Source of the DNA: Bolinopsis microptera
Lineage: Eukaryota > Ctenophora > Tentaculata > Lobata > Bolinopsidae
Assembly (NCBI RefSeq): GCF_026151205.1
Contig: NW_026971802.1
Location: forward strand, 1 to 46,368
Length of the DNA stretch: 46,368 nucleotides
Direction of reading: 5' to 3'
In this document: piece after piece, positions 13,965-36,772 of the stretch
Layout: the number at the start of each line of letters is the position of its first letter
How positions within the stretch are numbered: position 1 is the stretch's first letter
The notes under the pieces: model-generated
What the model saw: only the letters and a program-made list of their open reading frames with translations
Database searches by the model: none
Told to the model about the DNA's origin: nothing
Program-made: the position numbers and the translations under genes

Positions 13965-13966
13965 AG

Positions 13967-13977
13967 TGGTAGCAGAG
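13967..13977 (+). promoter_or_regulatory. Primer-binding site (initiator tRNA-Met type)
   Basis: TGGTAGCAGAG begins 2 nt after the left LTR. It is complementary to the 3' end of eukaryotic initiator tRNA-Met including CCA, the usual primer of copia-type elements. The match covers 11 nt. Confidence 0.8.
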
Positions 13978-13986
13978 AAGGACGCA

Positions 13987-16900
13987 ATGGCACCCCCAGA
14001 GACAGTTAGAGTAACTAGTAATTACAAAGCCCCACCGGCATACAGTGAGGATCAGGACTACTGCAATTGGAAGTTAGACCTGCAGCTGTGGCAAGAGTTC
14101 ACGGGTTTAGAGAAAAAGAGACAAGGAACTGCGTTGCTCTTAGAATTGAAACAAGGGAAGATAAAGGATACAGTACGATCATTGGGGAAAGATGTCCTAA
14201 TTGCAGAGGATGCAATAGCAAAGATTTTAAGTCATCTTGACAAAATCTATTTAGAGGACTCAGCTCAAACCTGTTACCGAGTTTACGGTAAGTTTGAAAA
14301 ATATGTGAGACCAGAAGGGTTGTCTCTACAGAGTTACATATCTGAGTTTGAGAAGTTGCTAGCGGATCTCAGGAGACACAAAATCACTCTTCCTGAAGCA
14401 GTTCTGGCCTACAGATTCCTTAACAGCGCTAACCTTCCGTCAGAAAAATACGATCTCGCTTTGGCAACTGTAAAGGATCTTACTTATAAAGATATGTGTG
14501 AAACGATCGGGAAAATCTTCTCCGTCCAATCGAACCTTTCCACACCGCCTGCGTCAATATCAGTGAAGGTGGAACATGAGGAATGTAACTATACATACAA
14601 CTCAACCCCAAGAGGTGGACGAGGAAACTACAGAAGGATGTCAAGAGGACGTGGGAATCATCATCATCCGTATAATCGACAAAAGAGTGCGTATACTGGA
14701 TGCTATGCTTGTGGCGATAAAAACCATATTGCGAGATGGTGCACAAGCAAGAACAGAGCTTCTTCAAGTTCAACAGAAAATGCACAGTATTTCGCACAAG
14801 ATGGTGCTGAGAATGTTACGGCCATGGAAGCAGAGGGTGCATTCTTAACATTCATGGTGGTGTCTGAATCTGAAGATGTTGTTGAGATTCCTGAAGAGTG
14901 CCTGATGAGTGATACGAACCTTGGTTCTCTTGTATATGAGTCATTAGCATGTGCAGTTATTGATTCCGGATGTACAAAGACAGTTGTTGGTAGGAACTGG
15001 GTGAATCACTACAGAGAAACTCTGGAAGAAAAACAACTGAAAATGATGGTTAGTGAACCTTGCTCGACGCCTTTTAGATTTGGGGATGGACTCGAAGTCA
15101 TTTCCACAGAAAAGACTATCATCCCTGGGCGAATAGGAAAGACCGATGTTCGGATAGAAGCAAACATTGTTGAGAAAGAACTGCCGTTGCTTCTCAGTAA
15201 AGCATCGTTAAAGAGAGCTGGTGCTGTGTTGGATTTCACAAATGATACAATGAGATTCAGTGGAGATTGTGTTGATTTGTTTGAAACTAAATCAAAGCAC
15301 TATTGCGTTCCTCTTTGTAATAAAAGACGCATGACCATTGGGCCGCCAGATCGAAAGACCCCACATCTGGTGATGACAATCAGCGAAGAAGGTTTGTTTG
15401 GTACTGACGAAAAGGAGATTAGGAGGAAAGTGGAAAAAATCCACAAACAATTCTCACACCCTCCTAGTGATAAACTGAAAACATTGCTGAAAACTGCAGG
15501 ATTTAAGAGACCAGAATACATGAAAGCAATTGATGAGGTATCCAGCAGTTGTAAAATATGTCTGATGTACAAGAAACCCAAGTCAAGACCAGTGGTGGGT
15601 CTCCCAAGAGGAAAGGTGTTCAACGAATGTGTTGCAATGGACCTTAAGAATGTTCCTGGCACTCCTAATGTGTATATCTTGCATATGATTGATTCGGTGA
15701 CAAGATATTCAGCAGCTAGAATAATCTACAATAAGAAGAAAGAGACAATCATCCAAGGAATTTGCTCTGGATGGATATCCATCTTTGGAAATCCAAAGAA
15801 ATTTATGGCTGATAATGGTGGAGAGTTCGCCAATGAGGAGTTTACTGAGATGTGTCAAAGATTCAATGTGGATGTGCAAAATTCAGCTGCCGAGAGCCCT
15901 TGGAGCAATGGGATTGTAGAACGTCATCATAAGATGCTGACAGAGATGATGGTAAAAACGAAGGAAGATTCAAAATGCAACTGGGAAGTTGCATTGTGTT
16001 GGGCACTAAGTGCGAAAAACTCCATGCAGATGTTTGGTGGGTTTTCTGCAAATCAGTTGACAATGGGCCGTAACCCTTCACTTCCGAATGTCATCGATGA
16101 TAGACTGCCAGCTTTAGAAGAAACAACGGTGAGTAAAACCGTGGCTGATAATGTTAATGCAATGCACAGTGCAAGGCAAGCATTTGCAAAGTGTGAAAGT
16201 AGCAACAAGATACGTAGAGCTCTGCAAAGCCAAGTTCGGACAAGCAATGATGAGTATTATAGCAACGGTGAAAAGGTGATGTACAAGAGAAAAGGATCTG
16301 CAAAATGGAGTGGGCCAGGTGTTATACTGGGGAGAGACATTACTCATTTATATATTTTAAAGCATGGAAATCAGTATTATAAGTGCAGTGCATGTCATCT
16401 AACCAGGGATACAACAACAGGATATCCCATTACCTCAGAGTCAGTTGTTGGGCAACCTAACCCGAGTATTGTATCAAGTTCACCAAAATCCCCATTAGAG
16501 ACGCAGAGAAATTTCCTAGAGGATCAACCATCTTGCTCTATGGAAACAGCAGTTTCTGTACCGGAAACAGAAACACTGCCTCAAAGTGAGACAACAGCAA
16601 CAATCAGACCTCAGCACAAATCAGGACTTCCTAAAGCAAGAAGTCACGTGGAGTTTCTTCCAAAGTATCCAGAGGAGGATGGTGAGATCTGGCATAAAGC
16701 TTATATCCATAGCCGTGCGGGAAAATCAACTGGCAGTTACAAAAACTGTGTAAATATTCAACTTGATGGTGAGGAGAGCATCCAATGTGTGGATTGGTAT
16801 GAGCTTGCTGTGAATTGGAGAGATGACCTGTCACCAGAAACAGAAGAAGAGGTGTTGCTGTCCAGTGTGAGTATGTATGACCAAGCAGTTGTAGATGCCA

Positions 16901-18351
16901 AGCTAGCAGAGCTTGAGAAGTTCAAAGTAAACAAGGTTTACGTGGAAGTTGATGCAAACGAACAGTCCAATGTTGGTGTTCGTTGGGTAATTACAAAGAA
17001 AGCAGAAGGTTCTGTTAAAGCTCGTTTAGTGGCACTTGGTTATCAAGAAAATAGTAGCAACATACGAAAGGACTCCCCAACATGTAACAGGGACTCTATA
17101 AGACTGCTCCTTACAATAGTTGCAACAGAAAGTTGGAAGTTACAACACATCGATGTTCAGGCTGCCTTCTTGCAAGGCAAGAAGATTTCAAGAGATGTCT
17201 TCATTATTCCTCCGAAGGAAGCTGAAACGAGGAAAATCTGGAAACTGAACAAATGTATTTACGGGTTAGTAGACGGACCTAGAATGTGGTATGTTGAGCT
17301 TCGTGATACTCTAGTGAAGTTAAATGTTGTGGTATCGTCATATGATGAGTCATTCATGTTCTGGTATGATGAAGGAAAACTCGAGGGTATCATTGCTGTG
17401 CATGTTGACGATCTGATGTTCAGTGGAAGCAAGAAGTTTGAAAGGGAAGTTATTGGGGAACTGAAGAAGAAGTTTCGTCTAAGTACGGAGGTCGAAGTTG
17501 AATTTGCTTATACTGGTCTTGATGTAAAGCAAACACAATCTGGAATTCTGGTATCACAACTGGGGTATGCAGACCAGATTTCAAGAATAGAGATCGACCC
17601 CACCCGAGTGAATCGAAATACGCTCCCAATCAACGAGAAAGAAAAGCAACAACTGAGAACTGTGTGCGGACAGTTGTTGTGGGTATCAACACAGACACGG
17701 CCAGATGTAGCTTATGCTACATGTTTTGCTAGTAATTCTGTGACTGAAGGGACCATCGCAGATTTGAAAATGGTAAACAAAACAGTAAAGTTCTTAGAAA
17801 AGAATCCTCTAACACTCAGGTTTAAGAAACTACTGTTGCCTGAGTCAGTCTTAGTGGTTTTCTGTGATGCATCGTATGGAAACTTGAAGGATGGTAGCTC
17901 TCAGGGAGGCTTCATAATTTTCCTTGTTTCGCTTACAGGAAAATCTTGCCCCATTACATGGCAGAGTAGAAAAATCCGGAGAGTATGTAAAAGTACTTTA
18001 GCAGCGGAGAGTTGGGCAATGATCGAAGCAGTGGAAACATGTGAGTTGATCCAAGCTCAGCTGAGTGAGATCATGTTATCTGGAAAACTTGATGTCATTG
18101 TAATGACTGATTGCAAGTCTCTACATGATGCTATCCAAACCTCGAAAAATGTTGATGACAAGGGATTGAGGATACCAATAGCTTGCCTGAGACAGCGAGT
18201 GAACAATAGTGAAATGACAGTTCGTTGGATTTCAACAAAGAAACAGCTTGCAGATTGTTTGACTAAAGCTGGAGCTCCAACTTCACTGCTACGGGAGGTA
18301 TTGTCGTCAGGAGAATTTGACAATGAACTGTTTAGAATTGTATTCCAATAA
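13987..18351 (+). CDS. Copia Gag-Pol polyprotein
   Basis: This single 1454-residue frame starts at the ATG at 13987. The frame is open from 13966, but that region is the primer-binding site. Order: Gag with an N-terminal UBN2-like helical region; a CCHC knuckle CYACGDKNHIARWC at residues 239-252; aspartic protease with IDSG (Asp326); integrase with its His-Cys region and the triad Asp552, Asp609, Glu645 (35 residues between the last two); reverse transcriptase with HVDDL (Asp1141, Asp1142); and RNase H with CDAS (Asp1294) and a later TDCKS. Integrase before reverse transcriptase defines Ty1/copia order. No frameshift or stop is present and all catalytic residues are there. The protein would package, reverse-transcribe and integrate the element. 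How Gag and Pol ratios are set is not apparent, since they are fused. Confidence 0.95.
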   Translation: MAPPETVRVTSNYKAPPAYSEDQDYCNWKLDLQLWQEFTGLEKKRQGTALLLELKQGKIKDTVRSLGKDVLIAEDAIAKILSHLDKIYLEDSAQTCYRVYGKFEKYVRPEGLSLQSYISEFEKLLADLRRHKITLPEAVLAYRFLNSANLPSEKYDLALATVKDLTYKDMCETIGKIFSVQSNLSTPPASISVKVEHEECNYTYNSTPRGGRGNYRRMSRGRGNHHHPYNRQKSAYTGCYACGDKNHIARWCTSKNRASSSSTENAQYFAQDGAENVTAMEAEGAFLTFMVVSESEDVVEIPEECLMSDTNLGSLVYESLACAVIDSGCTKTVVGRNWVNHYRETLEEKQLKMMVSEPCSTPFRFGDGLEVISTEKTIIPGRIGKTDVRIEANIVEKELPLLLSKASLKRAGAVLDFTNDTMRFSGDCVDLFETKSKHYCVPLCNKRRMTIGPPDRKTPHLVMTISEEGLFGTDEKEIRRKVEKIHKQFSHPPSDKLKTLLKTAGFKRPEYMKAIDEVSSSCKICLMYKKPKSRPVVGLPRGKVFNECVAMDLKNVPGTPNVYILHMIDSVTRYSAARIIYNKKKETIIQGICSGWISIFGNPKKFMADNGGEFANEEFTEMCQRFNVDVQNSAAESPWSNGIVERHHKMLTEMMVKTKEDSKCNWEVALCWALSAKNSMQMFGGFSANQLTMGRNPSLPNVIDDRLPALEETTVSKTVADNVNAMHSARQAFAKCESSNKIRRALQSQVRTSNDEYYSNGEKVMYKRKGSAKWSGPGVILGRDITHLYILKHGNQYYKCSACHLTRDTTTGYPITSESVVGQPNPSIVSSSPKSPLETQRNFLEDQPSCSMETAVSVPETETLPQSETTATIRPQHKSGLPKARSHVEFLPKYPEEDGEIWHKAYIHSRAGKSTGSYKNCVNIQLDGEESIQCVDWYELAVNWRDDLSPETEEEVLLSSVSMYDQAVVDAKLAELEKFKVNKVYVEVDANEQSNVGVRWVITKKAEGSVKARLVALGYQENSSNIRKDSPTCNRDSIRLLLTIVATESWKLQHIDVQAAFLQGKKISRDVFIIPPKEAETRKIWKLNKCIYGLVDGPRMWYVELRDTLVKLNVVVSSYDESFMFWYDEGKLEGIIAVHVDDLMFSGSKKFEREVIGELKKKFRLSTEVEVEFAYTGLDVKQTQSGILVSQLGYADQISRIEIDPTRVNRNTLPINEKEKQQLRTVCGQLLWVSTQTRPDVAYATCFASNSVTEGTIADLKMVNKTVKFLEKNPLTLRFKKLLLPESVLVVFCDASYGNLKDGSSQGGFIIFLVSLTGKSCPITWQSRKIRRVCKSTLAAESWAMIEAVETCELIQAQLSEIMLSGKLDVIVMTDCKSLHDAIQTSKNVDDKGLRIPIACLRQRVNNSEMTVRWISTKKQLADCLTKAGAPTSLLREVLSSGEFDNELFRIVFQ

Positions 18352-18669: not shown

Positions 18670-18834
18670 TGTGAATTGCTATATATTTGGTTTATATATT
18701 TATGATAGTCGATATAATATATACTAATTGTGTTCTATTTCAGAATGTACCACAAACATGTTGTCTGTGGGGTTTGATAATTACTTGTAACAACTGGTGT
18801 GTTTCATTGCATAGTGATCCATTTAAAGTTAACA
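18670..18834 (+). repeat. Copia 3' LTR
   Basis: Identical by eye to the left LTR (13800-13964). It is followed at once by the ACCAA target duplication and the resumed LINE frame. Confidence 0.95.
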
Positions 18835-19742
18835 ACCAACACTGGGAAAGAATTAAGCAATCTATTTCAGCTCGAGGGTTATAATAGTTACTATCAGGAC
18901 ACAGCACCTAACAAACAAAAGGGCACTGGAGTAGCCCTTTATGTTGACGATAGATTAAATGCTACAGTAATTGAAAATATATCACAAGTCACAGAACATC
19001 TAGAAATACTTGTCTTATCATTAAGTAACGAAAATCAACCTGTTAATGTAGGTGTTTTGTATCGTCCACCAAGTAGCTGTATTTCCCAAGCTCTAGTTGA
19101 ACTTTCTAACCTTCTTGATCACATGCCGAAGTTTAGTTATCTAGCTGGAGACTTTAATATCGATCTTCATGATAAAGACAACAAAAATGTACAAAAATAT
19201 GAAGAAATATCGTTCAGTAAAGGATTTTGTCCGTCAATATCTATTGCTACTCACGAAAAACCAGGCTGTAAAGCATCTTGCATAGACAACATAATTACCA
19301 ACGACATTGAGAATGTTATTACCTCAGGCACCCTAAAAGAACGAATAACTCACCACTCGCCTATTTTTAACAAATTTAACTGGAATGTTAAAGTCAACTC
19401 TGGAAAAACTTCTATTAAACAGTATTACGATTTCTGTCAATCAAATGTTAACGGCTTCCTAGTGGATCTTGAAGATGAGCTTAAAACTAAAATAATCCAT
19501 AACTTTACTGAATTCCATGACACTTACAAAAACTGCATCGAAAAATCGTTTAAACTAGAAACCCCGAAAACCTCTAAGAGAACTGTTAAGGTTAACCCTT
19601 GGATAACTCCCGGTCTCATTTGCTCAATTAATAATCAGCATAAACTGTACGAAAATTGGGTTGAGATAAGAAATAGAAAATGTAAACTCGGGGAAACTGA
19701 TAACAAGGGTGGGATTTGCCAGTGCCCTGAATGCAAAAATAT
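18835..19742 (+). pseudogene. LINE copy 2, endonuclease continuation
   Basis: The ORF resumes after the copia insertion and stays open to about 19740. It carries GTGVALYV, LYRPPSS, the catalytic AGDFNID strand and CIDNIITND, and ends in the Cys-rich linker CQCPECKN, which corresponds to residue 449 of the open LINE ORF2. The HHSPIF block stands where APE-type endonucleases usually read Ser-Asp-His, and LINE B has HHLPIF at the same place. After 19740 the similarity stops at a hairpin. The next 430 or so codons, with most of the reverse transcriptase, are missing before the family resumes at 27911. Confidence 0.85.
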
Positions 19743-19774
19743 GATCACCTAATGTTCATGGTGATCATATTTTT
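19735..19774. repeat. Perfect 15-bp inverted repeat at LINE/insert junction
   Basis: Arm AAAAATATGATCACC (19735-19749) and its exact complement (19760-19774) are separated by 10 nt. It sits exactly where LINE copy 2 loses similarity. It may be a scar of the event that brought in the Penelope/LINE block, or the terminus of that block. Confidence 0.7.
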
Positions 19775-20506
19775 TGATCCCCGGTGGGCAAACACTCGTC
19801 CGAAAGGTCAAGGCAAACCTGTCGATGTTTCACCATACGAAGTAAGGCGATTTGAACATATACTCAGCTTACAACTCAACCCATGGGACGAGACGTCGTG
19901 AGCCTCAAAATTCTTCAAAATATACAGCACATACCTAGTTAGCAAACACTAAACACAACATACATACGATACCAAATAATGTATAATGCCATTACTAATT
20001 CGAAAGAAAATATATCTGCTATCTAATTTAAAAAATTGAAGAATAAACCTGAAGAAAGGGGAAGGAGAGGGGTTTGGGAGAGGCAGAGTAGGAAAACAAC
20101 AGGATCCTGTGCCGCAGGATTTTAAAATTTGTTGTATGATGATTATCTTATATTTGATCCTTCGAACAGCTGTTGAGCAATGAAACGCAAACATAATCTT
20201 AGCAAAATGAATATATTTCTTTTATCTTCAGCATTTAATCAGTCACATAATCTGAGAATATCAATGGTTAGTTTGAAAATGTCAAAAATTCTCATCAAAA
20301 ATGTAGTAAAGTCTCAAAAAATTAATTTAGCATCTCGTAAAAATGGAATAGTTTAAAATCGGAACAAAAATAATCGCATATACTATAATAATGTGGAGTC
20401 TGCAGTAGTTCATTAAATCAAAAAGACGCAATTCAAAAATTGATAGACTGCATATATAAACAAAAAATGGACGATTTAAAAATAAAATTCGGGACACCAT
20501 GAAAAA
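19775..20506. other. Probable 3' region of the Penelope-like element
   Basis: There is no ORF worth reporting. It lies downstream, on the minus strand, of the Penelope-like frame. I searched for the hammerhead core that many such elements carry and found none on the minus strand. The exact 3' end of the element is not visible. Confidence 0.4.
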
Positions 20507-22267
20507 TTAGCTTCCAGAAACGGAATTCACATTGTTCAGGCCAAACGGATAAAGTGTCTTCAATTTGTTAATATAAAACTGTTCTGACTTTCTAATATTA
20601 TCTGGGGATGTAGAACACAAAATATCAAAATGGAAACTTTCATTGAAAACAGATCTCTCCCTCAAATTATGAACTGAAAAAAGATGTGCCCCTAAAACAT
20701 TCTCGTCATCAAAATCTCTGTGGCTCTCAACATTCCCCTTACTACTCGCCTCTAAAATCTCATAATATTTACTGCGATGACCATTCACACGTTGGCTGAG
20801 GCTGGTGACTGTTTTTCCCACGTATACGTTATTAACAGTACAAAGTTTGCATGTCGCGCCGTACACAATGTTGCGTGTCTTACAGTTACCACCTTGAGTT
20901 CTGACTGAGTGTCCATTATTGGAGACCATGGAATTGCCACTAACAAGGTGACAAGTTTGGCAGGGTCTGCCTTTCTTCTTCTCACCAGGTTTGGTGCATG
21001 GGTCAGTTGTTCTTGACTCTGAACCTAAGGCAAGCTTCTTTCTCTTGAATAAAGTGTCCTTTAAGTTAGGGGCTCGCCTGGTCACCACTTGGAGTTTAGG
21101 GATCCTCTCAGGGTTCTCACTGCTCCATGTACGGCTATTTGAGATGATGTTACTGGCCTCTTTAGCCTTTTCCTTGGTTTCCTCATAGCCCGCACCGAAT
21201 GTAACAATCCATGGTGTGAAAGAAGGGGGACCCTGATCCTTTGCCTTGTACTGTAAAGTTCTTGGTATCGATCTGACATCACTGATGACCTCTCTCACCA
21301 TATCAGTAGGATATGAAGACCGTTTAAAAAACAACTGAAGCTCTGCCAATCTCTCATCCAGCAAGACGTCATCATTGATTATCCTTCTGTATCGAAGTGC
21401 CTGTGAGAAGACTATACTCCGGAAGGTATGTCGTGGATGGAAACTTGAGAATTCAAGATACCTGTTGGCGTCAGTAGGTTTCCTAAACAGATCTGTTGTG
21501 AGTCTCCCTCCAACAAACTTGTACTGAATGTCCAGGAACTGAGTGAACTCCGTGATTGGTTTCACTTCGTATGTAATATCTAAGCCATAGTTATCAACCA
21601 TCTTACTGCGTAATGACCCTACCCATTCTTCAAAACCAATCATAGAACCTCTCCACATACCTTGGCCCGAAATATCATCCACAAACCGATCAAGGTTCTT
21701 GAGCTCCTCTGGTCTAACAACCGGGTCGTAAACCAGACTCTTTAGGACAAAGAACAAAGCAATGTTACCGCAATCCACTGAATTGATACCTCCAGTGGGT
21801 ACACCGTTAACGACCTCATACCAGTTGTCTGCATTCTTCAAGACTGCCGAATCAAAACTAAGCTGTATCAGTCCCTTCAGCCAAGTCCTGAACTCCTCAG
21901 ACCAATCTGGTCTACACGACTCCATAGCATCATCTAAGGCTGACATCACCAAGCTATGTTGCAGAGAATCGTATAGAGAAACAATATCAATACTGAAGCT
22001 GATCCAAGTATCGACTACTTGTCCGGAAGCTGCCAATTCCTCGAGTTTTATGAGAGCTGCAGTTGAATCTTTAACAAGATCTATACAGTAATCCCTGGCA
22101 AGAGGTCCCAACCACTTCCAAACAACAAACTTATCTGATCTTGCAGTTACTCCTCTAGAGAGATCAGTCACGAATCGACTGGGTGGAATCTTTTTCTCTC
22201 TAATTTGTATGATGATTCGTTTTGTTTCGTCTCTTAGATTAATATATAGGTCTGATACCCTTGTCAT
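20507..22267 (-). CDS. Penelope-like reverse transcriptase with GIY-YIG endonuclease, 5'-truncated
   Basis: An open frame of 586 residues runs from the first ATG (22267). The reverse transcriptase keeps motif A (SIDIVSLYDS, Asp94), motif B (GVPTGGINS) and the catalytic RFVDD (Asp197, Asp198). The Penelope-type block FRKPTDANRYLEFSSFHP follows. A CQTC zinc-binding pair precedes the C-terminal GIY-YIG nuclease (IVYGATCKLC, then VYVGKT with Tyr469, Tyr482; Arg493 and Glu561 candidate active residues). The N-terminal reverse transcriptase motifs are missing, so the element is 5'-truncated, as is usual for this class. Its 5' edge lies within about 50 bp of the end of LINE B ORF2 on the same strand. 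The frame has no stops, so it is young, but the missing motifs make it unlikely to be active alone. Confidence 0.85.
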   Translation of the reverse strand: MTRVSDLYINLRDETKRIIIQIREKKIPPSRFVTDLSRGVTARSDKFVVWKWLGPLARDYCIDLVKDSTAALIKLEELAASGQVVDTWISFSIDIVSLYDSLQHSLVMSALDDAMESCRPDWSEEFRTWLKGLIQLSFDSAVLKNADNWYEVVNGVPTGGINSVDCGNIALFFVLKSLVYDPVVRPEELKNLDRFVDDISGQGMWRGSMIGFEEWVGSLRSKMVDNYGLDITYEVKPITEFTQFLDIQYKFVGGRLTTDLFRKPTDANRYLEFSSFHPRHTFRSIVFSQALRYRRIINDDVLLDERLAELQLFFKRSSYPTDMVREVISDVRSIPRTLQYKAKDQGPPSFTPWIVTFGAGYEETKEKAKEASNIISNSRTWSSENPERIPKLQVVTRRAPNLKDTLFKRKKLALGSESRTTDPCTKPGEKKKGRPCQTCHLVSGNSMVSNNGHSVRTQGGNCKTRNIVYGATCKLCTVNNVYVGKTVTSLSQRVNGHRSKYYEILEASSKGNVESHRDFDDENVLGAHLFSVHNLRERSVFNESFHFDILCSTSPDNIRKSEQFYINKLKTLYPFGLNNVNSVSGS

Positions 22268-22322
22268 GGTTCTTTGCAATAACACCGTGGTTTACTCATA
22301 TGATTAAGTTTAGTTAATTAAC

Positions 22323-25300
22323 CTATTTCAATGATAATTCATTTGCATCAAAGTTGTAACTGCACCATAGTTGTCTGTCATATTTAGATTGTAGTTCTAA
22401 CAAAGCTTTCTTAAGATTATTCTTGAATATACTGATAGGAGTGGAGAAGTCTATTTCACTCGTTGACTTACGGCAGTGATTCCAAATACTGGTTGATTGG
22501 TAGATGAATAGTGAGGACGGAGTGGGTGGGATGAAGTAGTTGTCTCGTCTTGGTGACCTGTTGAATAAAGAGAACATTGAGACTGGTGATTGGAACTTAT
22601 TAATTTTAAACATTTCCAGTAAACAGTGCAACTTATGAAGATTGTGGACAGTCAGGAAGTTATACTCGTTACAGATTGGTTTACTGTGTTCTAGTTCAAA
22701 GAAATTTTTGCCTAACATCTGCTTGATAACTTTACCGGTCTTATCCCTAGTGATAGGCCTTACTCTGGCACATGTTTTGAACTTATTGAAGTACGCATCA
22801 TTATCACCAAAGAGAATTCTTATGCATTTCTTTTGTGTTTTAAATATGGCTTCTAGTTTATTATTTGATACACCTCCCCAAACAGATATTCCATAACATA
22901 GGTGTGATTCAAAAAGGGTGTGGTACAGGTCCTTATAGAGTGTTTTAGGTACACGGCGTCTGATTCCACATAGTCTACCAATCTCACATTTCAATTTACG
23001 ATTTAACGCTCTCAAGTGAGCATCCCAGTTCAGTTTTTGGTCAATAATGACTCCAAGAAACTTAGTTTCCTCTACCTTTTTAATTATTATATTATTCAGT
23101 GTCAGTTCTAATTCATTAGTGTTTGAATCTGGTTCATTTCTACAGTTCGGCTTAAAGTGGATATAACAACATTTCTTTGTGTTGATATGCAGCAAGTTAC
23201 TCTTCATATATTGATGAACAAGTTTAAGAATTTTGTTAGCTTTGCAGTAAAGTGTTTTTATACATTTATCTACAACAAATATGTTGGTGTCATCGGCAAA
23301 AAGTATAAACTTACCTAGGTCTGATACTCTATAATTATATATTTCATTGATGTAGATAATGAAAAGCAAGGGACCTAATACTGACCCCTGAGGCACACCA
23401 AATATTACAGACAGTTTTTCGGATTCTTCTCCAAGTACTGAAACATATTGCTGCCTATTAGAGAGGTAACTGGCTATTAATTTATTTGCAGTCCCTCGAA
23501 TTCCATAATCATTCAGTTTTTTAAGCAGTTTATCATGACAGATTGTATCAAAAGCTTTACTTAAATCAATGAAGATGCCTAGTACATGATTTTTATCTCT
23601 TAGTGATTTTTCAATGTAGTCGACAGAGAAGTTAAGTGCATGGCTTGTCGAATGATTTTTTCTGAAGCCATATTGATTTTCATATAATAATCCTTGCGAC
23701 TGGAAGAAACTGTAAAGCCTGGAGAATATAATTTTCTCAAGTATTTTACCAAATATCGCTAAGGTTGAGATAGGCCTGTAATTTTCAAGAAGCTCAGCAT
23801 TTTCTTTCTTATATATTGGACTTATTTTACCTACTTTTAGGTCGTCTGGAAAAACTCCCTGTTGCATACATTCGTTATACAATACCGATAGTAGTGGACT
23901 AATTTTGCCTGATACTGCCTTTACTATATGTACTGGTATATCACTAGCCTTGCCATTCTTTAGTTCCGATATGATCTTAGCCACCTCTTCAGGTGAGCAG
24001 TCATGTAGATATATATTAGCTGTATTCGATTTAGGTAAGAGGTCACAGAAACTTGGAAGCTGATTAATTTGTATTTCTCCTAGTTCTGTGTAGGCTGCAT
24101 TAAGGTTAGATGCTAGGGATACAAAATACTTATTGAATTCATTCGCTATAACTCTGCGATTAGTTATCTTTTCATTGTCTATGGTAAATATAGGTCTGAT
24201 CTCACGTTTCTGTTTGCCACGAATTTTATTTATAAGTTCCCAGGTTTTCTTGGAGTTTCCCTGAGTTTCAAGAAACTTGTCAGAATAATATTCAGATACA
24301 GCCATTTTACGAACCTTTTTTAGAGCCTTTCTATATTCTTTGTAGTCATCATAATGGTTTCTTTTATTACAGCAGATAGAACACAGGCATGTGCCCCCTT
24401 TTGTGTCAGTTTCGCCTTGTTTACACTTAACTTTCCTGACTTTCGCCCAGTCATCATACAGTCCATGGCAGTGGTTTACTGAGGCTATAATCCCGCCAGT
24501 AATCCAGGGGTTGTTCTGGATAGTGCGCTTAGTGGTTTTGGGTACAGCTAGTTTGCAGGTTTCGTCAATGCTGTTTTTAAAGATATCATGAAAGTTGGTA
24601 AAATCTATAATTGGTTCATTATCTAGTTTATTACCCAAGACTTCAGCAAATTTATCAGTGTTTGACTTACAATAGTCATAATATTGAGTGTGCTTATGAG
24701 TATTTTTGGTCTTGCTAATTTCCCAGTCAGATATATTAAATATAGGGAGGTGGTGAGATATGTGATCAGTTATGACTCCAGAGGCAGTAACAGAGTCTAG
24801 GTCATTTGTAATGATGTTGTCGATGCATGAGGCATTACATCCAGGCTTTTCATGAGTTGCTAATGATATCAATGGGAAGAAGCCTCTACTGAATAGGACG
24901 TCTTCATACTGTGCAATAATGTTACTGTGTTTACCATGGAGATTAATGTTAAAATCACCTGCAATTTGTGTATGTTTTGGTGCTTTATCAAGGATTGACG
25001 ACAATTCTTGGAGAGCTTGCTCAGCATTGCCACTTGGAGGGCGGTATATTACTCCTATAGAAGTAGAATTTCCTATACTTCCTATGGTTACAAAGAGGGT
25101 TTCTAGATTTTCTGTTACTTGTGACAGGTTGTTATTTTTAACAGCATTAAAGGAGTTAAGGACATATAGAGCTACTCCTGAGCCTTTTACTTTCGAGTCA
25201 AAGGTATCTTGATAGAAGCTCTCATAGCCTGTGAGTTCGTACAAGTTTTTCAATTCAGGGCCAACATTTGTTTCAGCGAGACCAATTACAGAGAATTTGT

Positions 25301-25712
25301 TAGTAAATCTAGCTATTTCAATTGCCAGCGAGTCAAAGTTTGATTTGTTGCCATCAAGATTTTGAAATATTAGTGAGTTTTGCACTTGTAATTCGTGAGC
25401 AAAGGTGTGGTTTATGCCTTTTACAGAATATGAGTCACAGCTTTCAAGTACCTCAGAGATTTTACGTGTAACATCATCTGCATCAGTGTTATCATCATTG
25501 TCATCATTCAGAAGCTTGAATGGGTTATAACGGATTACTGCTAGGTGGAGACAATTATTGCAGTACAAGTCAACTTTTTGATTTTGTTTGTCACTGGTGT
25601 TATAGCATCTAGAGTGAATGGGACAGTTACAGTTGTAGCATTCAAATATAGATTGACCTAGATAGATACTTTTTAAACAGTGGGCACAGACCTCTTTTTT
25701 AAGAACATTCAT
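22323..25712 (-). CDS. LINE B ORF2: zinc finger, APE endonuclease, reverse transcriptase
   Basis: The 1129 residues begin with a C4HC3 finger (Cys9, 12, 25, 28, His33, Cys36, 51, 54). The APE-type endonuclease spans about 112-330: AETN (Glu147), GSGVALYV, IYRPPSG, AGDFNI (Asp253, Asn255), IDNIITND (Asp298) and ISHHLPIF (319-325), where the usual Ser-Asp-His of the fold reads Ser-His-His. The reverse transcriptase spans about 570-880: [21 protein letters not shown] (Asp716), [12 protein letters not shown] and LFADDTN (Asp807, Asp808). After that comes TKFLGVIIDQKLNW and a conserved C-terminal domain with SPRRDNYF. The protein nicks DNA and copies element RNA into the nick. The start ATG overlaps the ORF1 stop. 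Confidence 0.93.
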   Translation of the reverse strand: MNVLKKEVCAHCLKSIYLGQSIFECYNCNCPIHSRCYNTSDKQNQKVDLYCNNCLHLAVIRYNPFKLLNDDNDDNTDADDVTRKISEVLESCDSYSVKGINHTFAHELQVQNSLIFQNLDGNKSNFDSLAIEIARFTNKFSVIGLAETNVGPELKNLYELTGYESFYQDTFDSKVKGSGVALYVLNSFNAVKNNNLSQVTENLETLFVTIGSIGNSTSIGVIYRPPSGNAEQALQELSSILDKAPKHTQIAGDFNINLHGKHSNIIAQYEDVLFSRGFFPLISLATHEKPGCNASCIDNIITNDLDSVTASGVITDHISHHLPIFNISDWEISKTKNTHKHTQYYDYCKSNTDKFAEVLGNKLDNEPIIDFTNFHDIFKNSIDETCKLAVPKTTKRTIQNNPWITGGIIASVNHCHGLYDDWAKVRKVKCKQGETDTKGGTCLCSICCNKRNHYDDYKEYRKALKKVRKMAVSEYYSDKFLETQGNSKKTWELINKIRGKQKREIRPIFTIDNEKITNRRVIANEFNKYFVSLASNLNAAYTELGEIQINQLPSFCDLLPKSNTANIYLHDCSPEEVAKIISELKNGKASDIPVHIVKAVSGKISPLLSVLYNECMQQGVFPDDLKVGKISPIYKKENAELLENYRPISTLAIFGKILEKIIFSRLYSFFQSQGLLYENQYGFRKNHSTSHALNFSVDYIEKSLRDKNHVLGIFIDLSKAFDTICHDKLLKKLNDYGIRGTANKLIASYLSNRQQYVSVLGEESEKLSVIFGVPQGSVLGPLLFIIYINEIYNYRVSDLGKFILFADDTNIFVVDKCIKTLYCKANKILKLVHQYMKSNLLHINTKKCCYIHFKPNCRNEPDSNTNELELTLNNIIIKKVEETKFLGVIIDQKLNWDAHLRALNRKLKCEIGRLCGIRRRVPKTLYKDLYHTLFESHLCYGISVWGGVSNNKLEAIFKTQKKCIRILFGDNDAYFNKFKTCARVRPITRDKTGKVIKQMLGKNFFELEHSKPICNEYNFLTVHNLHKLHCLLEMFKINKFQSPVSMFSLFNRSPRRDNYFIPPTPSSLFIYQSTSIWNHCRKSTSEIDFSTPISIFKNNLKKALLELQSKYDRQLWCSYNFDANELSLK
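25709..25712 (-). promoter_or_regulatory. ORF1/ORF2 stop-start overlap ATGA
   Basis: On the minus strand, ATG (25712-25710) starts ORF2 and TGA (25711-25709) ends ORF1. Such an overlap fits translation of ORF2 by termination-reinitiation, as known for some other LINEs with overlapping stop and start codons. Confidence 0.7.
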
Positions 25713-27841
25713 ACTGGAGGCTGATAGCCTTCAACATGAGGCTGTCCTCCGGCGGCATGAGAATAAAGTGTTGAACCAACCTTACCGTCCCTCCTACCCC
25801 TCTTCCTCCTATCAGTCCCTCCATGCATCCTAACAAGGACAGTATTACGGATTAAAGTAGCAAGTTTGGCCACTCCCTTCCAATTAAGGTGCAGGTAATC
25901 CGTCCGGCCATATTTGTCAAACTCCCTGGACAAGGTTGGGCAAAGTAAGCCAGTGTTATTATCCAGGAAGTCATCAAAGCCATCAACGAACTGGACACCA
26001 AAGTTTTTGGGAAGTAGCTCACGTCGAATAAGCTCTATAAAGTATAGAACTTTCCTATTTAAGTCAGTATTTCGAGTTGGTAAAAGTGGACAAAGAAATA
26101 CTTGAGCAGTTGGATTGGCCTCTTGGATTTGCTCAATCTTGAATTCTAAAAGACTAAATATAGCAAAAATTTCACGTTGAGATTTAACAGATGGTCTTCT
26201 AACATCATTAATACCACACATAATAACAACGTTCTTGTATCCACATGCAAGATATGGGTTAATGTCATCTATTGTCGGAGTCCAAACATTCCGACCAGGC
26301 AGCCATTTACCAAAGCTCCTCTTGTGATCCTCTCCAAATTTCATACCTGATCCGTTTGAATCAGAGAAGATACAAGTACTAGCACGATTCTTTCCGTCTA
26401 TTGATCTGAAAGTAAAACTATATCGTACTGCACCAGTGACTGACCCCTTCTGGATAGAGTGCTTGTAGTGAGCCTGACTCCTTCTGGTCATCCTGTAAAC
26501 TGACCTGGGGGTACACTTGTGTGTGTGAACTGAGTTGTTCATTTCAGTGAAGAGGACTTCGCATTCACCTCCAATGGAAAGAGTCAATATGCTAGATTCT
26601 GGATGTATCACTGGTTCGTTGTCAGAATGTTCTGGCAGGTAACCCTCGCCTTCTTCGTAGCGGTTGATCAACACGCTATTCATTACAGGATTTTCTTCTG
26701 CACAGAACTTCTCATTAATTTTCAGGATGAGCGCAGCCAGTTTCTCCGGTATTTCTGCATTTTTCTTGTTCTCATCCCTGGATCCACTGTATTTGTATTT
26801 CTCTCCAAACGAACACACTGAGTGCCCATTCTCCTTGCTGAACTGAAGAGATTCGCAGTACTGGAGAAGATCTGATTCAGCATCACTGTCTATGAATTCT
26901 TCCACTGTGTCTGCCACAGGTTTTTCTTCATTTTTAAAGATGGTCTTTGATAGAAGGTGCTTATCATTTAATGCAGAGCCAGATGATGGCTTATCGTGAG
27001 GAATTGTAGTCTGTTGGGTAGACAGTTGGTCTAGAGACTGCTTGATATCCTTCAATTCAAGAGAAATGTGCGGTTCCTGCCGAGTATGTTCATCAAGCTG
27101 GTCAATGATATCATGTATCAGTTTCTCAGTGTCAAGCTTGGGAGCAGTAGATGAGACAAGACCTTTGGTGGAAAGATCAGTGATTTGTTTCTGAAGGTCC
27201 TCAATAGCCGTTTTAACACCATTCACATCTTCACTTAGTTCTCCTTTACAGTGGTCTTCTATGCTTTTGACCCGGTTTTGATGGTCTTTCAAACCATGTT
27301 CATTGGTTAGCAGGTGTTGCAGGTGAAGGTCGAGGTTTTGGATCACCTGGATTGACTCTTTCATTTTATCAACATCAATTGTTGATAGTGATTTTGTCAA
27401 GGTTTCTATGTCTTTGAGGTTCTGACAGGCAGAGTGTACCTCATAATCACTATTGGACTGTTGTAGACTCAGGGTGTTCCGACATTTGTAGCAGAAGTTG
27501 TCGTGTGAGTTGGTTGGTACAGGTGCTACGTAGCAAAATGGACATAACCACTGTTCCAGCTTCAATATTGACGGCTTCGTGATACCCTTTAGTCCCAGAC
27601 AATCTGCATGCCAGTTCTGTTTGCATCCTGTGCATACTAGCTTGAAGCTTCCAGTATTCGACTGGCTACATGGGCATCTATCAACATTATGATGCTCTTT
27701 TTTAGTGTTTTGCCCTGTTCCTGTCACAGAGCCACGTCTATTTCCGGTAGATGGTGTTTTTATACCTGTACCTGACATCACACAGCCAAGCAACACACAG
27801 CTAATAAAGACAGCACAGCAAACAAACAACGAATTACTCAC
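25709..27841 (-). CDS. LINE B ORF1: PHD, coiled coil, AlkB-like dioxygenase, SGNH hydrolase
   Basis: In 710 residues there are four parts. (1) PHD finger: Cys56, 58, 70, 73, His78, Cys81, 100, 103. (2) A charged helical stretch at 140-290, probably coiled coil for multimerisation. (3) AlkB-like 2-oxoglutarate/Fe(II) dioxygenase at about 305-480: LINRY strand (Asn393, Tyr395), iron ligands His405 and Asp407 in EHSDNEP and His461 in YKHSI, and arginines 473 and 479 in RYSFTFR for 2-oxoglutarate. (4) SGNH hydrolase at about 488-670: Ser495 in SDSN, Gly543 and Asn545 in CGIND, Asp648 and His651 in DYLHLN. The C-terminus is Arg-rich. PHD and esterase modules are known from CR1-type ORF1 proteins; the dioxygenase is the unusual part. 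Residues 1-20 resemble a signal sequence, so the functional start may be Met22 (27778). The substrates are unknown; reversal of RNA base methylation is a guess from the family. Confidence 0.85.
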   Translation of the reverse strand: MSNSLFVCCAVFISCVLLGCVMSGTGIKTPSTGNRRGSVTGTGQNTKKEHHNVDRCPCSQSNTGSFKLVCTGCKQNWHADCLGLKGITKPSILKLEQWLCPFCYVAPVPTNSHDNFCYKCRNTLSLQQSNSDYEVHSACQNLKDIETLTKSLSTIDVDKMKESIQVIQNLDLHLQHLLTNEHGLKDHQNRVKSIEDHCKGELSEDVNGVKTAIEDLQKQITDLSTKGLVSSTAPKLDTEKLIHDIIDQLDEHTRQEPHISLELKDIKQSLDQLSTQQTTIPHDKPSSGSALNDKHLLSKTIFKNEEKPVADTVEEFIDSDAESDLLQYCESLQFSKENGHSVCSFGEKYKYSGSRDENKKNAEIPEKLAALILKINEKFCAEENPVMNSVLINRYEEGEGYLPEHSDNEPVIHPESSILTLSIGGECEVLFTEMNNSVHTHKCTPRSVYRMTRRSQAHYKHSIQKGSVTGAVRYSFTFRSIDGKNRASTCIFSDSNGSGMKFGEDHKRSFGKWLPGRNVWTPTIDDINPYLACGYKNVVIMCGINDVRRPSVKSQREIFAIFSLLEFKIEQIQEANPTAQVFLCPLLPTRNTDLNRKVLYFIELIRRELLPKNFGVQFVDGFDDFLDNNTGLLCPTLSREFDKYGRTDYLHLNWKGVAKLATLIRNTVLVRMHGGTDRRKRGRRDGKVGSTLYSHAAGGQPHVEGYQPPV

Positions 27842-27910
27842 GGCTCCCCTTTGGGGGTACTAGTACATGCTATTCCTGAACTCAAATTATTTGTTATATA
27901 GCAGCGCTGA

Positions 27911-28671
27911 AAGTATTAACTTTGAACAATGTTGTCATTAAAAAAGTCCAAGAAGCTAAATTTCTAGGTGTCATTATCGATGATCAACTTAATTGGAAAA
28001 CTCACACACGGTCACTTAACTCAAAACTTAAATGTGAAGTAGGTAAGTTATGCAGAATACAACACATTGTCCCTAAACAGTATTATAAGGATTTATATCA
28101 TACTTTATTCGAATCACATTTGGGATTTGGAATATCTGTATGGGGTGGTATTAGCAACAACCGACTCGAACCTCTCTTTAAAACACAGAAAAAGTGTATA
28201 AGAATTCTATTTGGGGATAAAGAAGCTTACTTAGAAAAATTTAGAACTTGTGCCCGGACACGACCATTTGGTGAGCAAAGACTAGGTGTGGACTTCTACA
28301 AAAAAGAACACTCTAAGCCCTTGTTTAAGAATCAGAAATTGTTAACTGTTCACAACCTGTATAAGTACACTTGTCTCTTAGAACTATTCAAAATTAATAA
28401 GTTAGAGGAACCATTATCACTGTACTCATCATTTAACAGGTCACCACGACGAGAGGATTATTTCATCACATCACAACCATCCTCACAATTCATCTACCAA
28501 TCATCCTACATGTGGAACAGCTGTCGACAAACATCAAGTAAGATAAGTTTTAATACTCCGACAAACGGGTTTAAGAATACATTGAAAATTGCTTTACAAG
28601 AATTGCAATTCAAGCATGATACACTTGATTGGTGTGAGCTTAATTTTGCCACAAATGAGCTCAAGTTTTGA
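27911..28671 (+). pseudogene. LINE copy 2, C-terminal piece of ORF2
   Basis: The frame opens LTLNNVVIKKV and AKFLGVIIDDQLNW, matching residues 870-897 of the LINE B ORF2, and runs without a stop to the natural end (NELKF, then TGA). It has the C-terminal domain including SPRRED. It lacks the reverse transcriptase core. Orientation and similarity fit the same LINE as 13589-19742, with the middle lost when the Penelope/LINE B block arrived. A separate truncated copy is the alternative. Confidence 0.8.
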
Positions 28672-31835: not shown

Positions 31836-32632
31836 CTAAAATTCTTCAGTACTAGCTATGATAAAACGTTTAATAGTATCCAGTTCTTCTCTCTTGTTAA
31901 TTGTAGGGTTCAGATTAATAATAAACATCGCTTCAAAAATCTTTCTTCTGACAGTATTGGGTTCAATTCTTAAAATATCTACTTCTAAACTGGGATTTAA
32001 CCCCTCATGACAGCTCGAATAATGTATGGCAAAAGCTTGACTAACATTAGAAGGGGTAGCAGGGTAGGTAGCGTAACGTAAGTGTTCTCCTACACGAGCA
32101 TGTACTTTCCTACTGCTTTCTCCAACGTACAGCTGGTCACATAATTTACACTTAATCTTATATACAACATTCTTCACTTCACAATCTTTATTACAAACTA
32201 TCAAAGGACAAATTTTACATGAATTAATACTGCACACACGTTTATCATACGGTCTGTTACTACATAAAATATTTCTCAATTTCGAAGTAGGTTTAAAGTT
32301 TACTTTAATAGGTAAATTGTTCTGCTTTACATAATTTCTAATCTTATTGCTAGTACTGTCCGAAATAAAATCTAAATTAAGGACTGTCCTGGAATCATCC
32401 TCAACACTCTGACGCCTGTTAGAATTACTACTGTTACAATAACGTCTTGGGTTCTGGTAACCGTTTTTCTGTAATAGATCATCAAGGAGTCTGAGAGAGT
32501 GCTCCTTTTCCGCTGGACCAGATGAGATACGGCAAGCCTCGCTATATAGGTTCTTCACTGTATTAATCTTAACAGACTCAGGATGGCAAGAGTTGTTGTG
32601 CAGGGTAATATCCTTTTGTTGCGGCTTAGTAC
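31836..32632 (-). pseudogene. Second Penelope-like element: C-terminal GIY-YIG endonuclease only
   Basis: The open frame starts near 32632 with no Met, reads LHNNSCHPES (the Penelope HNN-HP block), then LYSEACRISSGP, and reaches an ATG at 32558. It continues to a Cys-rich zinc region (CSINSCKICPLIVC) and the GIY-YIG nuclease (VVYKIKCKLC, LYVGESSR, RVGEHLRY). An in-frame stop lies just before, so the reverse transcriptase is lost. It is a different lineage from the element at 20507-22267, with little identity beyond the motifs. It is a 5'-truncated, dead copy with an intact nuclease frame. Confidence 0.8.
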
Positions 32633-35986: not shown

Positions 35987-36772
35987 ATGCTCATCTGTTT
36001 GCTGCTTTTAGCAGCATTTCAACCCATCTTTGCTGGTGGTCCACGCAAACTCAAAGCAAGCTGTATCATGAAGCTTCATGGAACAGATATTGAAGTTGGG
36101 AAAGTCGTGTTTGAGAGTGACGACATGCTGTTACAATCCATCAGACTAAACATAGACGGGGAGCCAGAGGACATCGTTAAAGGGCCCCACGGGTTTCACA
36201 TCCACACCAACGCAGTTGTAGGGAACAGCTGTGGAAAGGAAAGTACTGGAGGTCACTTCAACCCTCTGAGCACCACCCACGGTGACATAACCTCTATCGA
36301 TGTTGAGCGACATGTCGGAGATTTCGGGAACGTCAATGCTGGAGATAGAGGGGAGATCAACTTCGCCGCTGACATTGCTGTGTACCGGAATGGCGGTGTC
36401 GGAGCTTCCTTCTTGGGGAAACCTGCTATTAACTGTGGTCCCTGGCTACTTGAGGTTGAGAAGAGAAAAAGGAAGGGCAAAAAGGTAAAGAAGTGCAGCA
36501 AGAAAAGAGAAAAGAAAGGACTGTGCATCAACATCCCAACCTTTGAAATAATTCGCCATGATCCTGACTGCTACGTTTCTATGACAGAGAGGTGGGGTTT
36601 CACTCTCAACTCTCTAAAATTCAGACTTAAGGGACCGGACTCAGTGGTAGGCCGAGCAGCGGTCTTGCACGCTGGGAAGGATGATCTGGGACGAGGGGGA
36701 GATGAGGGTAGTGCCGCTACTGGCAACGCTGGGGGCAGGATTGCTTGCTGCACCCTCCAACTGGAGAAATAG
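35987..36772 (+). CDS. Extracellular Cu/Zn superoxide dismutase with basic insertion
   Basis: A single-exon 261-residue protein with a signal peptide (LICLLLLAAFQPIFAGG, residues 2-18). It converts superoxide to hydrogen peroxide outside the cell. Copper ligands His71, His73, His90 and His228; zinc ligands His90, His98, His109 and Asp112; the disulfide cysteines are probably 82 and 254; the substrate-guiding arginine is Arg251 in GNAGGRIAC. So the active site is complete. Between the GDFGNV strand and the GPDSVVGR strand there are about 75 residues more than in usual enzymes, including a Lys/Arg cluster (KRKRKGKKVKKC, 159-170) and four extra Cys (150, 170, 180, 195). The basic stretch could bind heparan-type matrix, as the basic tail of vertebrate extracellular SOD does; that is inference. 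A polyadenylation hexamer AATAAA is at 37151, some 380 nt past the stop. Confidence 0.88.
   Translation: MLICLLLLAAFQPIFAGGPRKLKASCIMKLHGTDIEVGKVVFESDDMLLQSIRLNIDGEPEDIVKGPHGFHIHTNAVVGNSCGKESTGGHFNPLSTTHGDITSIDVERHVGDFGNVNAGDRGEINFAADIAVYRNGGVGASFLGKPAINCGPWLLEVEKRKRKGKKVKKCSKKREKKGLCINIPTFEIIRHDPDCYVSMTERWGFTLNSLKFRLKGPDSVVGRAAVLHAGKDDLGRGGDEGSAATGNAGGRIACCTLQLEK

Follow-up and report, generated by a model that had tools for sequence, protein, structure and literature searches.

PHD fingers and SGNH-type esterases are known modules of the first open reading frame (ORF1) of long interspersed nuclear elements (LINEs) of the CR1/L2 lineages, and esterases have also been reported from LINEs of cnidarians and sponges (PMC3905857, PMC4120745). 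A survey of 448 elements of the Jockey superfamily distinguished five types of ORF1 and placed the esterase type in only two vertebrate subgroups; its main text names neither AlkB nor 2-oxoglutarate (2OG) nor oxygenase domains (PMC4120745). For an AlkB gene carried by a Gypsy element of the orchid Phalaenopsis, RNA binding and demethylation of N6-methyladenosine (m6A) have been reported in vitro (PMC9289625). In this work we focused on a LINE of the ctenophore Bolinopsis microptera, located in a stretch of 46,368 nucleotides (contig NW_026971802.1, positions 1-46,368, assembly GCF_026151205.1) hereafter called the window. An initial annotation of the window had proposed that ORF1 of this LINE joins a PHD finger, an AlkB-like dioxygenase and an SGNH hydrolase, and had held AlkB to be no standard part of such proteins. 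In agreement with the latter view, our literature search found no description of a LINE or Helitron carrying AlkB, with subscription papers mostly and Repbase also outside its reach, so that an earlier mention is possible. The PHD-AlkB-SGNH architecture was likewise not found in the literature searched.

Judged by the anatomy of its ORF1, the element is a CR1/L2-like LINE; ORF1 is followed by an ORF2 with a reverse transcriptase (RT) and an APE-like endonuclease, which is the LINE layout. ORF1 residues are numbered here from the GTG codon that opens the listed frame of 710 codons. A profile search matched residues 346-479 to the AlkB family PF13532 with 55.1 bits, against a Pfam cut-off of 31.2 (E = 1.5e-14), and in a set of PDB sequences the window ORF1 alone matched ALKBH2 at 1e-4. 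The PHD match reached 23.8 bits, the cut-off being 24. In the SGNH part the match to Lipase_GDSL_2 remained below the cut-off (26.2 versus 32.9 bits), and we base the relation on its E-value of 1.3e-5 together with the catalytic set.

The complete AlkB ligand set read in the initial annotation (H405 and D407, H461, R473 and R479) is borne out: it is invariant in an alignment of 18 ORF1s, the window included, and also in 28 transposon AlkB domains. The proposed SGNH set stood for the most part, with S495 and N545 invariant in the 18 ORF1s and D648 and H651 conserved in at least 90% of them; G543 falls short of both lists, although 44 of the 46 long SGNH matches have Gly there. These same matches keep S495 and N545 in all 46 cases, H651 in 45 and D648 in 42. 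Among the 57 transposon-labelled AlkB frames of the stretches fetched from the same genome (264.65 Mb; designated by L-numbers), which include near copies and are thus not independent, H405, D407, E409 and R479 are kept in 55 and Q456, H461 and R473 in 56. E409 aligns with the acidic residue that reads the base in AlkB. The frame itself is open as first described, although its beginning probably has to be moved: no in-frame ATG occurs before codon 22, and a TGA lies near the frame start in three sister copies, so that the protein probably has 689 amino acids and 21 should probably be subtracted from the residue numbers.

Comparison of copies indicates that the window element moved recently. 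Over 2,130 bases of ORF1, L001 (C1) is identical to the window, L002 (C9) differs at 1 position, L003 at 8 and L004 at 35, and ORF1 occurs at 100% protein identity in three places, including the window. Three of these five copies (the window, L001 and L004) retain ORF2 as a single long frame, whereas L002 and L003 have a broken one. Despite their nearly identical ORF1s, the copies bear two unrelated 5' leaders, one in the window, L002 and L003, the other in L001 and L004.

The ratio of replacement to silent substitution rates (dN/dS), obtained by the Nei-Gojobori method, shows that the AlkB domain is under purifying selection across copies and families, as far as this can be read from sequence. 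Between the window and the sister subfamily L006-L008 the AlkB dN/dS is 0.06-0.07, with 33.5 silent and 10.5-11.5 replacement changes (approximate Fisher p of 2e-17 for L006, with site numbers back-calculated). Group C gave 0.04-0.05, the comparison of the two L010 subgroups 0.11-0.13, and that of L011 with L017-L019 0.11-0.12 (dS above 1.2); type B, closest pairs aside, spans 0.11-0.30, and the Helitrons span 0.15-0.33. Very close pairs have few changes, and their dN/dS is higher or undefined. The silent-to-replacement comparison suggested with the initial annotation thus favours it, as does the conservation of the ligand residues in the different copies and families. Silent divergence also jumps between the domains of ORF1. 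Between the window and L006-L008 the dS is 0.46 for AlkB and 0.13-0.17 for SGNH, and between L010 and L016 it is 0.34 for AlkB and saturated for SGNH, which suggests domain exchange between copies.

Confinement of AlkB to the LINE family of the window was rejected, as the domain is present in further LINE families and in Helitrons. A genome search with PF13532 gave 587 first-look candidates, 150 of which were scored, and at least 151 matches, one with internal stops among the matches listed. The window ORF1 had 63 matches in the genome: 29 belong to its own family (93-100% identity, one at 75% through frame breaks, many being pieces), and 34 show 43-46% identity, in ORF1 frames without stops. 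Type A LINEs have the order PHD-AlkB-SGNH (the window, L010, L011, L043, L027/L039/L048, L038 and L047/L050); L053 is placed among them by its AlkB and gave no PHD match. Type B LINEs have AlkB-SGNH with no PHD match in ORF1 (L026, L033, L042, L044, L045, L052). In type C (L029, L034), AlkB is followed by a probable coiled coil, for which Pfam coiled-coil family matches are weak, and then by an SGNH-like region matched by an iterated custom profile only and by no Pfam family. The type C group (L029, L030, L034, L036, L037 and L051, with ORF2 in L041) has AlkB towards the N-terminus with a probable coiled coil after it, an RT far from that of the other LINEs, and an AlkB placed beside the host-labelled rows.

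AlkB precedes the endonuclease (EN) and/or the RT in all three types. An RT-bearing frame follows ORF1 in the window, L001, L004, L010, L011, L043, L048 and L042, and is found on the adjoining stretch for L029 (L041), L038 (L055), L039 (L056), L027 (L057), L026 (L058), L045 (L059) and L044 (L061); an EN frame without RT match follows ORF1 of L052 (L060) and of L053. The survey of LINE ORF1s advised with the initial annotation, carried out in this genome, thus yielded further AlkB-bearing families of several RT groups. We also sampled 14 RT matches of differing frame lengths, 13 from the genome RT match list plus L064; families already known to have AlkB were excluded, and L063 and L064, RT relatives of the AlkB-bearing L043, were included. 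An AlkB match lies upstream of seven (L062, L063, L064, L065, L069, L071, L075), being partial in L062 and L069 and without an intact HxD in L071. L068 and L072 have an SGNH fragment only, and no ORF1 enzyme domain was found upstream of the other five (L066, L067, L070, L073, L074). No frame with PHD and SGNH but without AlkB occurs among the 14 stretches, several of which are truncated or miss ORF1, and LINEs without AlkB may well exist in the genome. Pattern searches of viral_contigs (156 matches) and genome_contigs (55 matches) confirmed no relative in these viral and prokaryote records, which have little bearing on animals. The genome itself has Lig_chan-Glu_bd genes (32 matches), for which animal glutamate receptors are the best PDB matches.

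Two Helitrons, L032:1383-9500 and L025:3803-9001, encode SGNH, AlkB, DUF6570 and Helitron_like_N in this order, in frames of 3388 and 2459 amino acids, respectively. L032 matches Helitron_like_N at 4.1e-22 and a PIF1 helicase at 3.6e-18, and L025 matches Helitron_like_N at 1.4e-6, where the fetched stretch ends. The N-terminal SGNH match is under the Pfam cut-off in both. The AlkB domains of L028, L031 and L035 are closely similar to those of L032 and L025. The domain order is the reverse of that in the LINEs, with SGNH before AlkB in Helitrons and AlkB before SGNH in LINEs.

A profile of the 28 transposon AlkB domains matched the PDB sequences of ALKBH3 (8.3e-29), ALKBH2 (5.9e-24), ALKBH8 (3.8e-14) and AlkB (4.9e-12), and no chain named FTO or ALKBH5 was among the 35 PDB sequences found at E <= 0.001. 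The RT and AlkB trees agree where both are resolved: A1-A4 group together, as do B599/B593, and C stands apart. B is grouped with B551 in both trees, weakly in that of AlkB, and the RT tree supports type A as one group, which the AlkB tree does not resolve. The agreement fits AlkB having been passed on with the element within these LINE groups. Five AlkB frames in four loci (L021-L023, L054) are labelled as host, a label that denotes solely a stretch with no transposon domains. In an AlkB tree of 34 rows, 31 transposon rows fall on one side of a weakly supported branch (93/77), and group C plus the host rows are split from LINE types A/B plus Helitrons at 98/96; with an ALKBH3 reference added the corresponding supports are 86/78 and 98/96. 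Three alternative topologies were not rejected (Helitrons with the reference rows and C, p = 0.405; a LINE-only group of A, B and C, p = 0.132; A and B without Helitrons, p = 0.364), and long branches make placements in this tree unsafe. As between one capture of AlkB and several, a single origin is neither shown nor rejected.

We propose that ORF1 of a recently active CR1/L2-like LINE took up an AlkB domain of the ALKBH2/ALKBH3 kind, and that methyl removal keeps the template copyable, a proposal that we consider evenly poised between right and wrong. ORF1 proteins (ORF1p) of other LINEs coat the RNA of their element, and the protein described here would do likewise. Its AlkB domain would oxidatively strip methyl groups from bases of the element RNA, or of single-stranded DNA (ssDNA) during copying, the likeliest predicted targets being 1-methyladenosine (m1A) and 3-methylcytidine (m3C), and the template would thereby be kept copyable. 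Both marks sit on the pairing face of the base and stop reverse transcriptase and polymerases, and ALKBH3 acts on both in single strands. We prefer template clearing as the function because ALKBH3 is the best match and because m1A and m3C block reverse transcriptase. Such clearing would also suit Helitrons, which move through ssDNA, and this route would account for the same pair of domains in some of them. The SGNH part may provide contact with membranes or lipids, as proposed for ZfL2-1 (PMC3905857), and the PHD part contact with chromatin. More tentatively, and with greater doubt than we attach to template clearing, AlkB may have been captured repeatedly by unrelated elements (at least two LINE lineages of different domain order, and Helitrons), each time with an SGNH-type hydrolase, which would point to a host defence, or a strong barrier to copying, based on methylation of bases in transposon RNA or ssDNA, and to AlkB as a general answer of the elements to it.

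The AlkB activity, substrate and role of ORF1 are inferred from sequence comparison, and several observations weigh against the proposal. The best match to ALKBH3 is that of a whole-domain profile with ALKBH2 close behind, and such a match does not fix the substrate. At position 475 (26417-26419) Ser is found in 56 of the 57 transposon frames (RxSxTxR), whereas ALKBH3 has RxNxTxR; of the four host-labelled rows that have a residue at this position, three show Asn, and Ser is possibly a mark of the transposon AlkBs. FTO too has Ser at the equivalent position, and a role in m6A therefore stays open. The genome also contains seven matches to MT-A70, the m6A writer family, so that m6A is a possible target. 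The ligand set is partly missing in four frames (L062, L069, L071, L009), of which at least L062, L069 and L009 are partial or broken, and a single-sequence AlphaFold model of residues 300-490 of the window ORF1, made with the double-stranded beta-helix of AlkB enzymes in view, came out at a low pLDDT of 36.5. Finally, the AlkB dN/dS is 0.43 between the window and L004, with 3 silent and 5 replacement changes.

There is a second explanation, which we find rather unlikely: the AlkB domain would remove a mark set by the host (m6A in RNA, N6-methyladenine or lesions linked to 5-methylcytosine in DNA) and so lift silencing, with the PHD finger guiding it to chromatin. The PHD finger in the same protein and the MT-A70 matches are in line with it, as are the CpG-poor LINE ORFs (observed/expected 0.44 and 0.42; the entire window has 0.71, and the fetched loci taken together have 0.54). 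It has precedents in the orchid Gypsy AlkB with its reported m6A demethylase activity in vitro (PMC9289625) and in the TET/JBP enzymes described from fungal DNA transposons, Helitrons included (PMC12730594). The AlkB profile, however, is nearer to ALKBH3 and ALKBH2 than to ALKBH8 or AlkB and retrieved no PDB chain named FTO or ALKBH5 at E <= 0.001, and evidence for a DNMT1/3-type gene is thin, consisting of one match in a 424-amino-acid frame that could be DNMT2 and one match of 36 positions, in a search that can miss multi-exon genes. Improbable, in our opinion, is an ALKBH2/3-like repair of alkylation lesions, including by-products of DNA methyltransferases, at the integration site or in the nascent cDNA. 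The best matches would suit it, and so would the same domains in Helitrons, whose intermediate is DNA; but ORF1p is expected mainly on RNA, and stand-alone AlkB genes, taken as host genes, already exist (L021-L023), so that an additional one would have to bring some local benefit. Still less credible is an AlkB domain that oxidises a protein, for instance a histone recognised by the neighbouring PHD finger, or that only binds nucleic acid. The 2OG oxygenases do include protein hydroxylases and demethylases, but catalysis is favoured by the retention of the iron and 2-oxoglutarate ligands, along with the acidic E409, in 55-56 of 57 frames, and ALKBH enzymes acting on nucleic acids head the matches to solved proteins. 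That the motif matched by chance, or that a single dead copy once picked up a host ALKBH gene, is ruled out by the significant profile match, the intact copies and families, and a dN/dS far below 1 between subfamilies.

The features of the LINE copy and of the remainder of the window are listed in Table 1.

Table 1. Features of the LINE copy and other coding regions of the window
Feature	Position	Strand	Basis
Whole LINE copy, interrupted by an insertion	19750-27919	-	5' end: alignment with L002/L003; 3' end: alignment with L002
Short 5' leader	27842-27919	-	Alignment among copies
ORF1, listed frame of 710 codons opening with GTG; probable ATG start at 27778 (codon 22)	25709-27841	-	
PHD finger, residues 56-103	27533-27676	-	Pfam PF00628, 4.4e-5, just under cut-off
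AlkB / 2OG-Fe(II) oxygenase, residues 346-479	26405-26806	-	Pfam PF13532, 1.5e-14; conservation
SGNH (GDSL) hydrolase, residues ~486-672	25826-26386	-	Pfam PF13472, 1.3e-5 over 529-656, under cut-off; conservation
ORF2, 1129 amino acids	22323-25712	-	Open frame; ATG overlaps ORF1 stop
APE-like endonuclease of ORF2, residues 118-324	24741-25361	-	Exo_endo_phos and Exo_endo_phos_2, E 3e-4 to 6e-4, both under cut-offs
Reverse transcriptase of ORF2, residues 635-890	23043-23810	-	Pfam RVT_1, 2.2e-35
3' untranslated region, first part	22205-22322	-	
3' untranslated region, second part, past insertion	19750-20144	-	
Copia-type polyprotein	13966-18351		RVT_2, rve
Weak GIY-YIG match	31836-32558		
Cu/Zn superoxide dismutase frame	35987-36772		

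The ORF1 stop (25711-25709) and the ORF2 ATG (25712-25710) overlap as ATGA, a type of overlap known in other LINEs with stop-restart translation. In the window the Cys-rich start of ORF2 (25533-25712) matches C1_1 weakly; a custom PHD profile matched the start of ORF2 in L059, L060 and L064. A later insertion of 2,060 bases in the 3' untranslated region (20145-22204) is accompanied by a 13-base duplication, and a frame of 592 codons without Pfam match (20507-22285) lies mostly inside it. The 3' end of the LINE falls within a 15-base inverted repeat with a 10-base loop (19735-19774), in the loop of which the match to L002 stops. No target-site duplication of the LINE itself was obvious by eye in the copy alignments at its ends. 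Plus-strand pieces of the ORF2 of another LINE (endonuclease and C-terminal part of the RT) are present on both flanks (18781-19749 and 27880-28668), as if the element had inserted into an older LINE, the middle of which is missing. Elsewhere the window contains a Copia-type polyprotein, a GIY-YIG match that is Penelope-like by look, and a frame for a Cu/Zn superoxide dismutase.

If the AlkB domain is active, these LINEs would carry their own eraser of base methylation, and it could be tested whether base methylation on RNA or ssDNA limits transposition and whether RT-blocking marks hinder LINEs. With this enzyme type in both its LINEs and its Helitrons, the genome would then preserve a natural record of the conflict. 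AlkB adds an enzyme to the few modules known from LINE ORF1, and the elements may be a source of demethylases for clearing templates before reverse transcription.

Among known proteins, the transposon AlkB profile is matched best by ALKBH3 and ALKBH2, neither of which has a PHD or SGNH partner. Plant RNA viruses of the Flexiviridae are also genetic parasites, with an RNA genome, that carry an AlkB domain, there in the context of a viral replicase and with RNA repair as its proposed role. The CR1/L2 LINEs with esterase-type (type IV) or PHD-type (type III) ORF1 share with the present element the combination of an ORF1 and an APE-RT ORF2, but here PHD, AlkB and SGNH are united in one protein. 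Uptake of SGNH/GDSL domains by unrelated mobile elements, similar to that seen here, has been described for a platyfish Helitron (PMC4021074) and for rotifer LTR and Penelope-like elements (PMC5408684), with no mention of AlkB in the accessible portions of these papers, including the main text of the latter. The fungal DNA transposons and Helitrons with TET/JBP (PMC12730594) resemble the present elements in carrying a 2OG dioxygenase, there a base-modifying one that moved between element lineages; the enzyme is TET/JBP rather than AlkB, and according to the author none was found in retrotransposons. The closest precedent is the Phalaenopsis Ty3/Gypsy element with its AlkB (2-ODD) gene (PMC9289625), a retrotransposon encoding a domain of the AlkB family. 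That AlkB is an extra ORF of a plant LTR element, titled a recent acquisition, whereas in B. microptera AlkB is part of LINE ORF1 proteins and of Helitrons, and is accompanied by an SGNH domain.

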